Source: Pseudomonadota bacterium (GTDB lineage: Bacteria > Vulcanimicrobiota > Xenobia > RGZZ01). From it: a DNA stretch of 35,436 bases. This document shows, one piece after another, positions 25,015 through 30,578 of the stretch (positions within the stretch are counted from its first letter, which is position 1; each line of letters starts with the position of its first letter). The notes beneath the pieces were generated by a model. It saw nothing but the letters and a program-made list of their open reading frames with translations, was not told the DNA's origin and did not search any database. Made by a program: the position numbers and the translations under genes. The stretch covers positions 1-35,436 of the forward strand of contig RGZZ01000009.1 of the NCBI GenBank assembly GCA_010028905.1, in the 5' to 3' direction.

Positions 25015-26582
25015 GTCATCACCGTCCTTGATTGCTCACGCATGAACTGCATCACGTAATACGGTCCGCAGCCCCCCTTGCCGCTCGACCCGCTCCCCTT
25101 CCAGCCGCAGAACGACTGCACCCCGGGCCAGGCGCCCGTGGTTGCGCCGGTGCGACGGTTGGCGTACAGAACGCCCGATTCGATGGTGTTGAAGAACACA
25201 TCGAGCTCGGCCTGCTCGGCGGTGAAGATGCCCGCGGTGAGACCGTAGTCTGCCGCGTTCGAGAGGGTGATCGCCTCTTCGAGGGAGTCGACCGGCGCCA
25301 CCGCCAGCACCGGGGCGAAGAGCTCGGTGTAGAACAGCGGGTGATCTTTCGGAAGGTCGGTGACGATGGTGGGCGCCAGGTAGTACCCCGCACCGTGCTC
25401 TTCGAGACGACGCCCGCCCGCGCGGATGATACCGCCATCGGCCCGCGCTCTCTCGACCCAGTGCAGGTAGCGATCAACCGCTGCCTGGTTGATGATGGGG
25501 CCCAGGTACACGTCGGGAAGGGTGGGATCGCCGATGCGGATGGCCTCGGTCTTCTCGACCAGCAGCGCGAGGAAGCGATCGTACACCGAGCGATGCACAT
25601 AGGCACGTGAGCACGCGCTGCACTTCTGCCCCCCGAAGCCGAACGACGAGCGCATCGTGCCCTCGGCCGCCTTGTCGAGGTCTGCGCTGGGCATCACGAT
25701 GCTCGGGTTCTTTCCCCCCAGCTCGAGGATGCACGGGCGCGGATAGCGCATGCTGAACGCGTGGTAGAGCGACATGCCCACCTCTTTGGAGCCTGTGAAG
25801 ATCATGCCTTCGACCCGGCGCGACTGCGTCACGGCATCTCCGAAGATCGCCCCGGACGCGGTGACCAGGTTGAACACCCCCGACGGCAGTCCGGCCTCGT
25901 GGAACAGGTGCGCCATGCGAACGGCCAGCAGCGGCGCCTCTGACGCGGGCTTGAAGACCACCGTGTTGCCCGCCACGAGGGCGCCCGCGCTCATGCCCGC
26001 GGCAAGCGCGAGGGGAAAGTTGAAGGGGCACACCACGGCCCACACGCCGAGGGGACGCAGCACCGACGACGTGTTCTCGTTGTCAGACAGTCGCCCGAGC
26101 GGAAGGGTGAAGCCCTTGGCGTCGTCCATCTGCTGGCAGTAGTAGCGGATGAGGTCGGCTGCCTCTTCCACGTCACCCATGGCCTCGAGGCGGTTCTTGC
26201 CCACCTCGAGTGACATGGCGGCGGAGAGCGCATACTTGTCACGACTGATCAGATCAGCAGCGCGGCGCAGCACCGCCAGACGCTCCGACCACGGGGTATC
26301 GCGCCACGCGGGCCAGGCGGCGTGCGCGAGTTCGATGGCCTGGTCGACATCGGCCCTCGTGCCCACGGCGAAGCGCCCGATGAGCACGTTCGGATCGATG
26401 GGCGAGCGATCATCGAACGTGGTGGCAGACATCACCTCACGACCTCCGAGGAACTGGCCGTGGGTGGCGCCCAGCGTGGCGCGCACGGCGGCGAGGGCCT
26501 CATCGAACGCGGCGTTGAAGGCCTCTTGGTTGGCCCCGAGCGTGCTGTAGGTGATCTTGAACGAAGCGGCTTGAACGGTCAT
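25011..26582 (-). CDS. Aldehyde dehydrogenase, glutamate-semialdehyde type
   Basis: A 523-residue NAD(P)-dependent dehydrogenase. It has the cofactor-site FTGSKEVG, the catalytic Glu in LELGGKNPS (E287), and the catalytic Cys in GGQKCSACSR (C321). The end, GWKGSGSSGKGGCGPYY, then MQFMREQSRT, is typical of ALDHs annotated as L-glutamate gamma-semialdehyde (1-pyrroline-5-carboxylate) dehydrogenase-like. With the overlapping aminotransferase gene it suggests ornithine, 4-aminobutyrate or similar amino-acid breakdown. ATG 26582 is preferred over GTG 26594 because GGGGTG lies nine bases before it. It diverges from the OmpR-type regulator gene with a 142-bp gap, in which I see no clear promoter. 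Confidence 0.93.
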   Translation of the reverse strand: MTVQAASFKITYSTLGANQEAFNAAFDEALAAVRATLGATHGQFLGGREVMSATTFDDRSPIDPNVLIGRFAVGTRADVDQAIELAHAAWPAWRDTPWSERLAVLRRAADLISRDKYALSAAMSLEVGKNRLEAMGDVEEAADLIRYYCQQMDDAKGFTLPLGRLSDNENTSSVLRPLGVWAVVCPFNFPLALAAGMSAGALVAGNTVVFKPASEAPLLAVRMAHLFHEAGLPSGVFNLVTASGAIFGDAVTQSRRVEGMIFTGSKEVGMSLYHAFSMRYPRPCILELGGKNPSIVMPSADLDKAAEGTMRSSFGFGGQKCSACSRAYVHRSVYDRFLALLVEKTEAIRIGDPTLPDVYLGPIINQAAVDRYLHWVERARADGGIIRAGGRRLEEHGAGYYLAPTIVTDLPKDHPLFYTELFAPVLAVAPVDSLEEAITLSNAADYGLTAGIFTAEQAELDVFFNTIESGVLYANRRTGATTGAWPGVQSFCGWKGSGSSGKGGCGPYYVMQFMREQSRTVMT

Positions 26583-26724
26583 GGACAGATTCACCCCTGG
26601 AAGATGGTCGGAGCCTCTTCTTCAAATCCCTGGGGGTTCCTCTGCCGAGAACTGTTGCACTGTCTTGCGTCGCGCGCCCCCTTGGCGGCAGGCCGCAAGG
26701 CCGGCCCCCGCGAAGCCCTGCGTC

Positions 26725-27408
26725 GTGAGCAGCAGCGGTTCTGGCAGGCGTGTCCTCGTGGTCGACGACGAGGAGGCCATCGTCGATTTTGTCGTGATGG
26801 GCCTGGGATACGAGGGGTTCGAGACCGCGTCGGCGGCCGGCGGACGCGAGGCCCTCGAGAAGTTCCATGACTTCCGCCCCGACGTGGTGATCCTCGACTG
26901 GATGCTCCCTGATCTCGATGGTCTCGAGGTGTGTCGTCGCATCCGGAGCATGTCCGATGCAGGCATCGTCATGCTGACGGCGCGCGGAGAGCTCGAGGAC
27001 CGGGTGGCCGGTCTGGAGACCGGGGCAGACGACTACCTGCCCAAGCCCTTCAAGTTCCAGGAGCTCCTCGCTCGGGTGAGAGCCCTGCTGCGCAGGTCGG
27101 GCAAGGCGCCGACGACCGTGCTCGCACACGAAGACCTCGAGGTCGACACCCTCCGGCGACGCGTGACCCGTGGCACGCGGGAGATCGAGCTGACGCCGCG
27201 GGAATACGACCTCCTCGAGCTGCTCGCTCGACGCCCCGGGCAGGTCTTCACGCGCGACCAGATCCTCGGTCGGCTGTGGGGCGGCGACTTCCACGGCGAT
27301 ACCAACGTGGTCGAGGTTCACGTGAGCGCATTGCGCGCCAAGCTGGCCGACACCGAGCGCCGCCTCATCCGAACGGTGCGCGGCGTGGGATACGCGCTCG
27401 GACGCTGA
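26725..27408 (+). CDS. OmpR/PhoB-family response regulator (CpxR-like)
   Basis: A 227-residue DNA-binding regulator of normal family length. The receiver (8-122) has the acidic pair VVDDEE, phospho-acceptor Asp58 (VVILDWMLPD), Thr85 (VMLTARG) and Lys107 (LPKPFKF). The C-terminal winged helix shows ELTPREYDLLELLARRPGQV, FTRDQIL, DTNVVEVHVSALRAKL and RTVRGVGYAL. GTG 26725 gives the usual N-terminus; upstream in-frame codons look noncoding. The sensor kinase gene follows by 89 bp. The direct repeats at 27448-27465 and 29022-29039 have the architecture expected of its binding site. Confidence 0.93.
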   Translation: MSSSGSGRRVLVVDDEEAIVDFVVMGLGYEGFETASAAGGREALEKFHDFRPDVVILDWMLPDLDGLEVCRRIRSMSDAGIVMLTARGELEDRVAGLETGADDYLPKPFKFQELLARVRALLRRSGKAPTTVLAHEDLEVDTLRRRVTRGTREIELTPREYDLLELLARRPGQVFTRDQILGRLWGGDFHGDTNVVEVHVSALRAKLADTERRLIRTVRGVGYALGR

Positions 27409-27447
27409 CGCCAGCCCCTTCCCCACCCGATGGCCGGCGCCGCGTTT

Positions 27448-27465
27448 CTTTAGGAGATCTTCAGG
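27448..27465 (+). promoter_or_regulatory. Direct-repeat operator before the sensor kinase gene
   Basis: CTTTAGG (27448-27454), four bases, CTTCAGG (27459-27465). This 7+4+7 direct repeat has the 11-bp period of PhoB/OmpR-type sites. The same motif occurs at 29022-29039 before the Spy-like gene. It ends 20 bases before the -10 box and covers the -35 region, as in activation by direct contact with polymerase. Confidence 0.7.
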
Positions 27466-27482
27466 CTCGGGCGCAGACGACC

Positions 27483-27491
27483 TGATATACT
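27483..27491 (+). promoter_or_regulatory. Extended -10 promoter of the sensor kinase gene
   Basis: TGATATACT is an extended -10 (TG-N-TATACT). The GTG start (27498) is six bases after it, so transcription should begin at or next to the start codon and give a leaderless mRNA. No clear -35 is present; the direct repeat takes its place. Confidence 0.65.
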
Positions 27492-27497
27492 GAACGC

Positions 27498-29027
27498 GTG
27501 AACAGGCAGCGGGCAGCCGACAGTCCTCCTCTCTCATCGATGCGTCGACCGTCGCTGCGACGGGTTCTCAGCAGCTGGTTCCTGGTCATCTTGACCGTCA
27601 CGATCGCCCTTCTCGGGGCCATCGTGTACATCACCGTCGACCGCCACACCCAGCAGCGCAACCAGGCCCGTCTGCGCGCCACGGCCCTGGCCGGGCTGGC
27701 CCAGGTCGAGCGAGAGTCAGAAGACCCGGAAACGAACGCCCCTTCTGACCCTCCCCGACTGCTCGACGTCGGCCCGTCGCTCGACACCATCGCCCCACGC
27801 CTGGTCGAGGCCATCGGATCGCGCTACGTGCTTGCGCGCATCCTCACCCGCGACGGGCAGGTCATGGCTTCGTCGACCGCCACTGTGAAGAGCGCACCGC
27901 CCCCGACTGAAGCGCTGCGCGACAAGCTCTCCACCTGCTTGTCGTGCCCTCCCCCCACCTCTAGAGGGCACCGCCTGCCGCTCACGCTGTACACGGAGAG
28001 TGCGGGCGATCGTGACTGGCTCGTGATGCTGATCCCCCTCTACCACGCCGAGCGCGCGGTCGGCGTGCTGCAGGTGGCCATGCCATCGCGCGAGCAGCGC
28101 CGGGTGATGAGCACCCTCGCCTGGACGCTGCTGGCAGGCGGACTGCTCGCCTTGAGCCTCGGCCTGGGAGCGGCCGAGGTTCTCTCTCGCCGGCTCTCGG
28201 CGCCCCTGGAGCGCATCGAGGAGACCGCACGCGCGGCGGCCCACGGAGATCTCAGTGCGCGCACCCATCTCACAGTGGGAACCCGAGAGACGCGCGAGGT
28301 GGCCGACGCGCTCGACGACATGATCGCGCGCCTGCAGAAGTCCCTCGAAGCCCAGCGGCGCTTCGTGGCCGACGCTTCGCATGAGCTGAAGACACCGCTG
28401 ACAGCCATCAGCGGCATGGCCGAGATGCTCCGCACGGGGCGCGCAGACACGTCCCCTGAGCAGCGAGAGAAGGCGTTGCGAACCATCGAGGCAGAGATCG
28501 ACAAGATGGCTCGCCTCGTCTCCGATCTGCTCACGCTTTCGAAGAGCAGCGAGGCTGAGGCACCGCTCCACGCCCGCACGTCAATCGACGTGAGGGCGCT
28601 GATCGAGAGCGCCACGGCAAGCGCACAAGACGCGATATCGAATGGGCGCCTGCGCCTCGACGCGCTCCCCCCGATGACCGTGGAGGGCGACGCCGACATG
28701 CTCTCTCGCGCCATTCGCAATCTCGTAGACAACGCCCTGGCCTACTCACCGCCCACGGGAACCGTCACGGTCCGCGCGGAGAGCGCGAACGCTGAAGCCG
28801 TGATCGAGGTGATCGACGAAGGGCCCGGCATCTCTGCCGAAGACCTGCCCCGCGTCTTCGACCGCTTCTACCGCGCCGACGCATCCCGCAGCCGACAGAC
28901 CGGCGGTGCCGGACTCGGCCTGCCCATCGTGGCGGCCATCGCCCAGCAACACGGTGGAAGGGTTACCCTTCACAGCGCTCCGGGGAAGGGCACCCGCGCC
29001 TGCCTGCACCTCCCCCGGAAACTTTAG
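27498..29027 (+). CDS. Membrane sensor histidine kinase (CpxA-like)
   Basis: A 509-residue kinase. Transmembrane helix 1 is about 27-46. A periplasmic sensor domain (about 47-205) contains a CxxC pair, STCLSCPPP (C147, C150). Helix 2 is about 206-226, followed by HAMP (227-280). HisKA has DASHELKTPL with His295, then the ATPase with N-box (IRNLVDNALAYSPP), G1 DEGPGIS, F-box and G2 GGAGLGLPIV. The GTG at 27498 has no Shine-Dalgarno and lies directly after a -10 box. Its stop TAG lies within the next operator. It forms a pair with the upstream regulator, but is probably also transcribed alone, by that regulator. Confidence 0.93.
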   Translation: MNRQRAADSPPLSSMRRPSLRRVLSSWFLVILTVTIALLGAIVYITVDRHTQQRNQARLRATALAGLAQVERESEDPETNAPSDPPRLLDVGPSLDTIAPRLVEAIGSRYVLARILTRDGQVMASSTATVKSAPPPTEALRDKLSTCLSCPPPTSRGHRLPLTLYTESAGDRDWLVMLIPLYHAERAVGVLQVAMPSREQRRVMSTLAWTLLAGGLLALSLGLGAAEVLSRRLSAPLERIEETARAAAHGDLSARTHLTVGTRETREVADALDDMIARLQKSLEAQRRFVADASHELKTPLTAISGMAEMLRTGRADTSPEQREKALRTIEAEIDKMARLVSDLLTLSKSSEAEAPLHARTSIDVRALIESATASAQDAISNGRLRLDALPPMTVEGDADMLSRAIRNLVDNALAYSPPTGTVTVRAESANAEAVIEVIDEGPGISAEDLPRVFDRFYRADASRSRQTGGAGLGLPIVAAIAQQHGGRVTLHSAPGKGTRACLHLPRKL

Positions 29028-29061
29028 GCGCGCTTCAGGATCCTCTCTCTTGTTCCTCAGG
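29022..29061 (+). promoter_or_regulatory. Direct-repeat operator before the Spy-like gene
   Basis: CTTTAGG (29022-29028), four bases, CTTCAGG (29033-29039), the same 7+4+7 motif as before the kinase gene. A further CCTCAGG at 29055-29061 is exactly 22 bp (two 11-bp periods) after the second repeat. The first repeat overlaps the kinase stop codon. The main repeat pair ends 31 bases from the -10, against 20 for the kinase gene, an 11-bp difference that keeps the same helical face. Confidence 0.7.
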
Positions 29062-29070
29062 AAGACCCGC

Positions 29071-29076
29071 TATGAT
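29071..29076 (+). promoter_or_regulatory. -10 element of the Spy-like gene
   Basis: TATGAT lies nine bases after the CCTCAGG half-site. A weak TTGTTC (29050-29055) could be a -35 at 15 bp. The leader would be about 38 bases, with AAGGAG ahead of the ATG at 29121. Confidence 0.55.
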
Positions 29077-29120
29077 GCAGTCATCCCCCAAATTCCATGA
29101 GAGAGAAGGAGAAACCCCCG

Positions 29121-29831
29121 ATGAGAATCCCTCGAATGCTGATGACGGCGCTGATGCTGCTGGCGATGACCATGCCCTTCGCCCACGCCGAGCGCCACAC
29201 CAACAAACCGGGTCGCATGTTCAGCATCCTCACCGATCGGCTCAACCTCACGCCTGATCAGCAGAGCCAGCTCAAACCCCTCGTCGACGCACGCGAGGCC
29301 CAGCTCAAGAGCCAGTGGAAGGCCAATCGCGAGGAGATGCGCGCCGTGCTCACCGATGCGCAGCGCACGCGGCTCGACCAGATGATGGCCGAGCGCCGCG
29401 CACGACTCTCCGATCGCTGCGCCAGGAAGCAGGACGGTTCGTGCACGGGCCAGCAGGGCGCCGCCGACAGCCAGGGCTCTTCGGCCTGCAAAGCCGAAGA
29501 GGGAAAGCCTTCAGGACCGTGTGCTTCTGCCGGCACAGCAGGCGCCAACAAGCACAACCGTGCCTGGAAGCACGGCGACCGCGAGGCCTGGATGCGCAGC
29601 CTCGACCTCACCGATGAGCAGAAGACCAGGCTCGCCACGATGCGCGACCGAAACCGCGCGCAGATGAAAGCCGAACGCGAGCAGTTCAACACCAAGGTGA
29701 TGGCCCTGCTGACGCCGGACCAGAAGGCGAAGTTCGAGGAGATGGGCAAGCGCCATCGTCTCCGCGATGCGTCTGGTCGCCACGAGAAGAAGCCGGGAAG
29801 CGCCTCACCCGCGCCTGCGTCCGGCACGTAA
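29121..29831 (+). CDS. Spy/CpxP-like periplasmic protein with two LTxxQ modules
   Basis: A 236-residue exported protein. A signal peptide (1-23, MRIPRMLMTALML, then FAHA|ER) is followed by two tandem Spy/CpxP-type helical modules. Each holds two LTxxQ motifs: LTPDQ 43-47 and LTDAQ 77-81, then LTDEQ 163-167 and LTPDQ 197-201. The linker between modules (about 98-148) is low in complexity and has four cysteines (C100, C108, C123, C134). Spy and CpxP are ATP-independent periplasmic chaperones or inhibitors of the Cpx kinase and are about 160 residues with one module, so this is a doubled form. AAGGAG is nine bases before the ATG. Its promoter has the operator shared with the sensor kinase gene. 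Confidence 0.88.
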   Translation: MRIPRMLMTALMLLAMTMPFAHAERHTNKPGRMFSILTDRLNLTPDQQSQLKPLVDAREAQLKSQWKANREEMRAVLTDAQRTRLDQMMAERRARLSDRCARKQDGSCTGQQGAADSQGSSACKAEEGKPSGPCASAGTAGANKHNRAWKHGDREAWMRSLDLTDEQKTRLATMRDRNRAQMKAEREQFNTKVMALLTPDQKAKFEEMGKRHRLRDASGRHEKKPGSASPAPASGT

Positions 29832-29844
29832 CCCCCCTCTTCTT

Positions 29845-29880
29845 CCCCGATGGCGGCGGCGGCGCTCCTCTCCCTCGGGG
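29845..29880. terminator. Possible weak hairpin between convergent genes
   Basis: CCCCGA (29845-29850) and TCGGGG (29875-29880) could form a 6-bp stem with a long 24-base loop after the Spy-like gene stop. This is a weak candidate only. Confidence 0.25.
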
Positions 29881-29909
29881 CGCCGACCGTCGTCTTCCTG
29901 TTCTGCGCG

Positions 29910-30578
29910 TCAGATGCCTGCGGGAGGGCGAACCACCGGCACGTGCGCGCTGTGCGCGAGGGGCGCCCCCGTGCGCGCGAGCACCTCGTCCACCGTCACG
30001 TCGGGGGCGATCTCGCGCAGCCTCAGCCCCTCGTCGGTGACATCGATGACGGCGAGCTCGGTGACGATGACGTCGACCACACCCAGGGCCGTCAGGGGCA
30101 GCGAGCAGACGGGCACGATCTTGGGGTTCCCCTTCTTGTCGGCGTGGGCCATCATGGCCACCACGCGCCGAGCCCCCACTGCGAGATCCATGGCCCCGCC
30201 CATCCCCGTCACCTTCTGGCCCGGCACCATCCAGTTCGCCAGGTCGCCCCCTTCAGAGACCTCCATGGCGCCGAGCACCGCCCAGTCGACGTGTCCACCG
30301 CGAATCATGCCGAACGACCATGACGAGTCGAAGAACGCGGCGCCAGGACGCACCGTGATGGTCTCCTTGCCGGCGTTGATGAGCGTGGGAGAGACCTGGG
30401 CGCGAGTGGGATAGGGGCCCACCCCGAGAACCCCGTTCTCGCTGTGCAGCGTGACCTTGCGTCCCTCGGGGATGTAGTTCGCCACCAGCGTGGGCATGCC
30501 GATGCCGAGATTGACGTAGTCGCCGTCGCGAAACTCCTGGGCCACGCGCCAGGCAATCTGTGTGCGGCTCAAAGGCAT
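29910..30578 (-). CDS. CoA-transferase subunit B
   Basis: A 222-residue beta subunit of a 3-oxoacid-type (succinyl/acetoacetyl/butyryl) CoA-transferase. It has the opening [19 protein letters not shown] and the catalytic Glu motif [10 protein letters not shown] (E47), where the CoA thioester forms. It continues [15 protein letters not shown] and ends in the [19 protein letters not shown] typical of the family. ATG 30578 has AGGAGGAG seven bases upstream. It starts four bases after the subunit A stop, so the two form a complex from one mRNA. Substrate is uncertain. Confidence 0.93.

Follow-up and report, generated by a model that had tools for sequence, protein, structure and literature searches.

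Three genes in a row on the forward strand, together with their promoter elements, constitute a compact module in the window, that is, the whole 35,436-nt stretch of DNA analysed:

26725–27408, + strand: OmpR/PhoB-type response regulator, receiver and winged-helix domains (Pfam Response_reg, Trans_reg_C)
27448–27465, + strand: operator 1, half-sites CTTTAG (27448–27453) and CTTCAG (27459–27464), conserved before the kinase in G001 and G002
27486–27491, + strand: kinase-promoter -10 element TATACT, at +38 from the first half-site (+39 in relatives)
27498–29027, + strand: membrane sensor histidine kinase, GTG start (Pfam HAMP, HisKA, HATPase_c)
29022–29039, + strand: operator 2, half-sites CTTTAG (29022–29027) and CTTCAG (29033–29038), position kept in class relatives
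29055–29060, + strand: third half-site CCTCAG, at +33, ending 10 bp 5′ of the -10
29071–29076, + strand: Spy-promoter -10 element TATGAT, at +49
29121–29831, + strand: secreted LTXXQ/Spy-like protein with two Spy-like modules (Pfam LTXXQ, 1.2e-11; profile match to E. coli Spy structures)

The initial annotation of these genes as an OmpR-type regulator, a membrane kinase and a Spy/CpxP-like protein is borne out by Pfam, NCBIfam and profile searches. PF00072 and PF00486 both score above the Pfam cut-off in the regulator, placing it in the OmpR/PhoB family, and HAMP, HisKA and HATPase_c all exceed theirs in the kinase, as in kinases of that family. The LTXXQ domain of the third protein scores 45.6 bits against a Pfam cut-off of 24.3 and assigns it to the Spy/CpxP (LTXXQ) proteins. 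Its reading frame ends at 29831 and could open at an ATG at 29097 or 29121; the latter is the better start, with the ribosome-binding-like sequence AAGGAGA at 29106–29112. In three genomes of the family, proline-metabolism genes lie next to parts of the module (L117, L118, L317; 25011–26594 in the window). A glutamate-semialdehyde-dehydrogenase-like gene lies near the module in the window and in G001, and in G002 proB adjoins the regulator gene and proA the Spy-like gene. This neighbourhood was considered as a possible clue to the signal, but it differs from genome to genome.

The 18-mers at 27448–27465 (CTTTAGGAGATCTTCAGG) and 29022–29039 (CTTTAGGCGCGCTTCAGG) are both exact instances of the repeat CTTTAGG-N4-CTTCAGG that had been reported before the kinase and Spy-like genes, and the regulator gene indeed lacks an upstream copy. 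The first half-site of operator 2 (29022–29027) is at the same time the last codon and stop codon of the kinase gene, CTT TAG. The gap between 18-mer and -10 is 20 bp at the kinase promoter (TATACT, 27486–27491) and 31 bp at the Spy promoter (TATGAT, 29071–29076). The difference is thus exactly the 11 bp claimed previously and keeps both sites on the same helical face, so that the operator-like element stands in fixed helical phase with the -10. Such a direct repeat, with a period of about 11 bp and upstream of a -10, conforms to an OmpR/PhoB-family operator. A search of 26550–29950 found no consensus sigma-70 promoter that includes a -35, which fits activator-dependent promoters. With first-order Markov statistics taken from the window, exact copies of the repeat are expected 2.5e-5 times in 35 kb and 0.004 times in 5.69 Mb. 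When the 5.7-Mb genome is scanned, as the initial annotation had proposed, the C/T-relaxed form CTTYAGG-N4-CTTYAGG matches with zero mismatches at these two sites and nowhere else; CTTYAG-N5-CTTYAGG gives 2 matches genome-wide against 0 in a backwards-read control. The N4 spacers (AGAT and CGCG) differ between the two sites, as do the flanks, and the repeat is therefore not a recent copy. A literature search by motif letters returned nothing relevant.

A search for the kinase covered 58 genomes of the phylum, and the class loci were then retrieved. Both sites are present in two genomes of the same family (G001 and G002), whose kinases are 44–45% identical to that of the window: an exact CTTTAG-N5-CTTCAG precedes the kinase, and the Spy-gene doublet carries one mismatch in each. 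Spy-promoter sites are also found across the class. In four loci of family f3, as in the window, the end of the kinase gene and the Spy-promoter repeat overlap; in several loci of family f2 the site comes first, followed by Spy-like gene, kinase and regulator; and in G008 (family f4) regulator and kinase are followed by the site and a DUF3300 gene. These relatives provide a strong phylogenetic footprint for both sites. The repeat is not enriched among regulator relatives from cyanobacteria and elsewhere (7 matches versus 9 in the control).

At the Spy promoter, the 7+4+7 repeat as originally described accounts for two half-sites but misses a third, CCTCAG at 29055–29060. In aligned Spy-type promoters, TTCAG begins 33 bp downstream of where the first half-site starts, and the -10 lies at +49, which gives a layout with half-site starts at 0, 11 and 33. 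The triple pattern matches 32 times in 18 class genomes versus 5 in a backwards control, and together with the -10 it matches 28 times versus 1 in 149 genomes of the phylum, an excess that is partly built in, as these patterns were drawn up after some loci had been seen. A cleaner test comes from 59 doublets in the 18 class genomes, picked regardless of third site or -10 and including some orthologous promoters within one genus as well as unrelated families of downstream genes: a third half-site lies at +33 in 21 of the 59 and TANNNT at +49 in 16, and any other offset has at most two. The genes downstream include those for LTXXQ, DUF3300 and DUF5666 proteins, for small secreted proteins and for an ECF sigma factor, and many of the products are secreted (LTXXQ/Spy, DUF3300). 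The doublet by itself is not enriched in these genomes (59 matches versus 63 in the control) and was rejected as a means of finding targets; specificity comes only from the third half-site and the -10. In the module's own genome, the full pattern with up to three mismatches has a single match, the Spy gene, and none in the control.

Further promoters of related form occur in the class. An ECF sigma factor gene (L260, 932–1756) stands behind a CTTCAG-type promoter that has CTTCAA as its third half-site and its -10 at +49, and the promoter at L261 is near-identical to this one; the two represent a possible link from the circuit to a sigma cascade. A second promoter class has TTTGAG half-sites at 0, 11, 22 and 33, with the -10 also at +49 and a TTAAC/TTAC-like element immediately upstream, and stands before small proteins (L185, L188, L191, L192, L200, L204, L205 and L206; site at locus position 1501). 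It probably constitutes the regulon of a paralogous regulator.

The kinase promoter places its -10 one 11-bp register nearer than the Spy type, at +38 in the window and +39 in both relatives. The kinase start codon follows 12–14 nt after the start of the -10 in all three genomes (12 in the window), a proximity that predicts a leaderless, or nearly leaderless, kinase mRNA. The kinase-type pattern with two mismatches shows no excess over the control in the module's own genome, and we therefore claim no further targets of this type. A conserved thiol or metal sensor was also considered and rejected, as the CxxC motif (CLSC) in the kinase sensor region is missing in relatives.

The two halves of the Spy-like protein align with a score of 83 versus 30 ± 5 for shuffled sequences, which marks an internal duplication, and the double-module arrangement is common to relatives of the protein. 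A four-sequence profile matches E. coli Spy structures (E 9e-9 to 3oeo). The protein shares with E. coli Spy the LTXXQ motifs, a signal peptide and this profile-level relationship, but it scores under the NCBIfam Spy cut-off (32 versus 174) and differs in carrying two Spy-like modules in one chain, with a four-cysteine linker between them (29418–29522). The four cysteines are missing in aligned relatives. One chain may act like a pair of Spy subunits.

A comparison with known systems retains the earlier label "Cpx-like" as a description of how the module works, but not as a family assignment. The regulator reaches 136 of the 341 bits of the NCBIfam CpxR cut-off and the kinase 176 of 486 for CpxA; the regulator likewise falls short of PmrA (162 of 330 bits) and PhoB (226 of 296) and passes no named NCBIfam family cut-off, the best being MtrA (251 of 300). 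The likeness to E. coli CpxR–CpxA with CpxP/Spy lies in the combination of an OmpR-type regulator, a membrane kinase and a Spy/CpxP-type periplasmic protein, and an LTXXQ protein lies downstream of the operator here, as expected of a Spy/CpxP-type target of CpxRA. The targets overlap in kind (Spy, DUF3300): E. coli yacH (DUF3300) is under CpxR regulation (PMC9600279), and the DUF3300 genes of relatives bear the promoter described here. In contrast, the gene order differs, the window regulator gene has no site, and the operator is CTTYAG-N5-CTTYAG, whereas the CpxR motif is GTAAA-N5/6-GTAAA (PMC9600279). On sequence comparison, the repeat geometry is that of the PmrA and Pho boxes and not that of the CpxR box. 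The Salmonella PmrA (BasR) box, CTTAAG-N5-XTTAAT (PMC3973317), likewise consists of head-to-tail hexamers with five-base spacing (CTTTAG-N5-CTTCAG here), and CTTAAG is present in one half-site of some relatives. The fourth base, however, is T or C here and A in PmrA, and the targets here are envelope chaperones, with no lipid A modification genes seen among them. The Pho box is built of 11-bp direct repeats with 7-bp conserved and 4-bp variable units (PMC2648988), the same 7+4+7 layout, but the half-site sequence differs, the Spy-type array has one empty register, and the targets seen here include no phosphate genes.

We consider it likely that the locus encodes a self-wired envelope-stress-type two-component module, in which the OmpR/PhoB-type regulator activates its own kinase and a tandem-duplicated Spy chaperone. 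The kinase would sense a signal outside the inner membrane and phosphorylate the adjacent regulator, whose phosphorylated dimer would bind the head-to-tail CTTYAG half-sites 11 bp apart and bring RNA polymerase to promoters with a -10 and no -35. One output would be the kinase gene, expressed from a two-half-site promoter as a nearly leaderless transcript. The other would be the secreted tandem Spy chaperone, expressed from a promoter with three half-sites, the last of them ending 10 bp short of the -10, with chaperone protection of the envelope as the presumed outcome. The regulator gene would not itself be a target at this locus. That an OmpR-type regulator controls both kinase and chaperone, as in the feedback loop proposed at the outset, is the best explanation because the placement of the sites is conserved in relatives; we infer the sign, activation, from the missing -35 and the position of the sites. 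Points that weigh against this reading are the lack of doublet enrichment across the class, the absence of such a repeat from cyanobacterial relatives of the regulator, and the single mismatch in each of the Spy-gene doublets of G001 and G002.

The identity of the binding protein bears on this reading. The recognition helix NVVEVHxSxLR is preserved in orthologs whose genes adjoin CTTCAG sites, and in G001, where a 69% regulator ortholog lies on another contig beside a Dna2-like helicase and unrelated neighbours, the kinase–Spy pair retains both operators. Such evidence is consistent with the adjacent regulator as the binder, but is not proof. The module's own genome encodes at least eight other OmpR-type regulators at E ≤ 1e-40, and the equally spaced TTTGAG promoters of the class suggest related regulators with the same geometry and near-identical sites; the repeats could then be real operators of a different OmpR-type regulator, the adjacent one having other or shared targets. 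We judge this unlikely, given that the genes for regulator, kinase and Spy protein lie together with the site in three more families of the class, that the adjacent regulator is the closest match in each of them, and that the genomes with only distant regulators (G004–G006) have no triple site.

Activation by PhoB-type regulators expects an array upstream of the -10 in fixed register, and the arrays here follow that arrangement, with the last half-site stopping 10 bp short, at promoters without a -35. Repression of one or both promoters, as in negative autoregulation, is accordingly improbable, even though a protein bound at the third Spy half-site, between the -35 and -10 positions, could obstruct polymerase. 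It is harder still to see the repeat as chance or as a copied DNA segment without function. Doublets by themselves do occur at background frequency class-wide, but the small number of copies expected in the window, the differing spacers and flanks, and the retention of the sites in relatives at fixed -10 offsets make this extremely improbable; the footprint and the register lock already contradict it.

Under the preferred reading of an activating, self-wired module, we have here a well-supported new case of a familiar circuit type with an unusual gapped promoter. A more tentative extension, which we hold to be possible but somewhat doubtful, is a fixed four-register promoter grammar in the class (0, 11, 22 and 33; -10 at +49), where promoter strength or induction order depends on which registers are filled: 0/11/33 would be filled at chaperone promoters, 11/22 at the kinase promoter and all four in the paralogous TTTGAG regulon. 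If true, the conserved gapped array with one skipped register would represent an activation architecture of its own among OmpR/PhoB regulators. The 0/11/33/+49 layout is specific enough for genome-wide target finding against almost no background, and it puts helical phasing and the number of half-sites within direct experimental reach. An operator, its promoter geometry and a predicted envelope-stress regulon are obtained from sequence alone for a class of mostly fragmented genomes.
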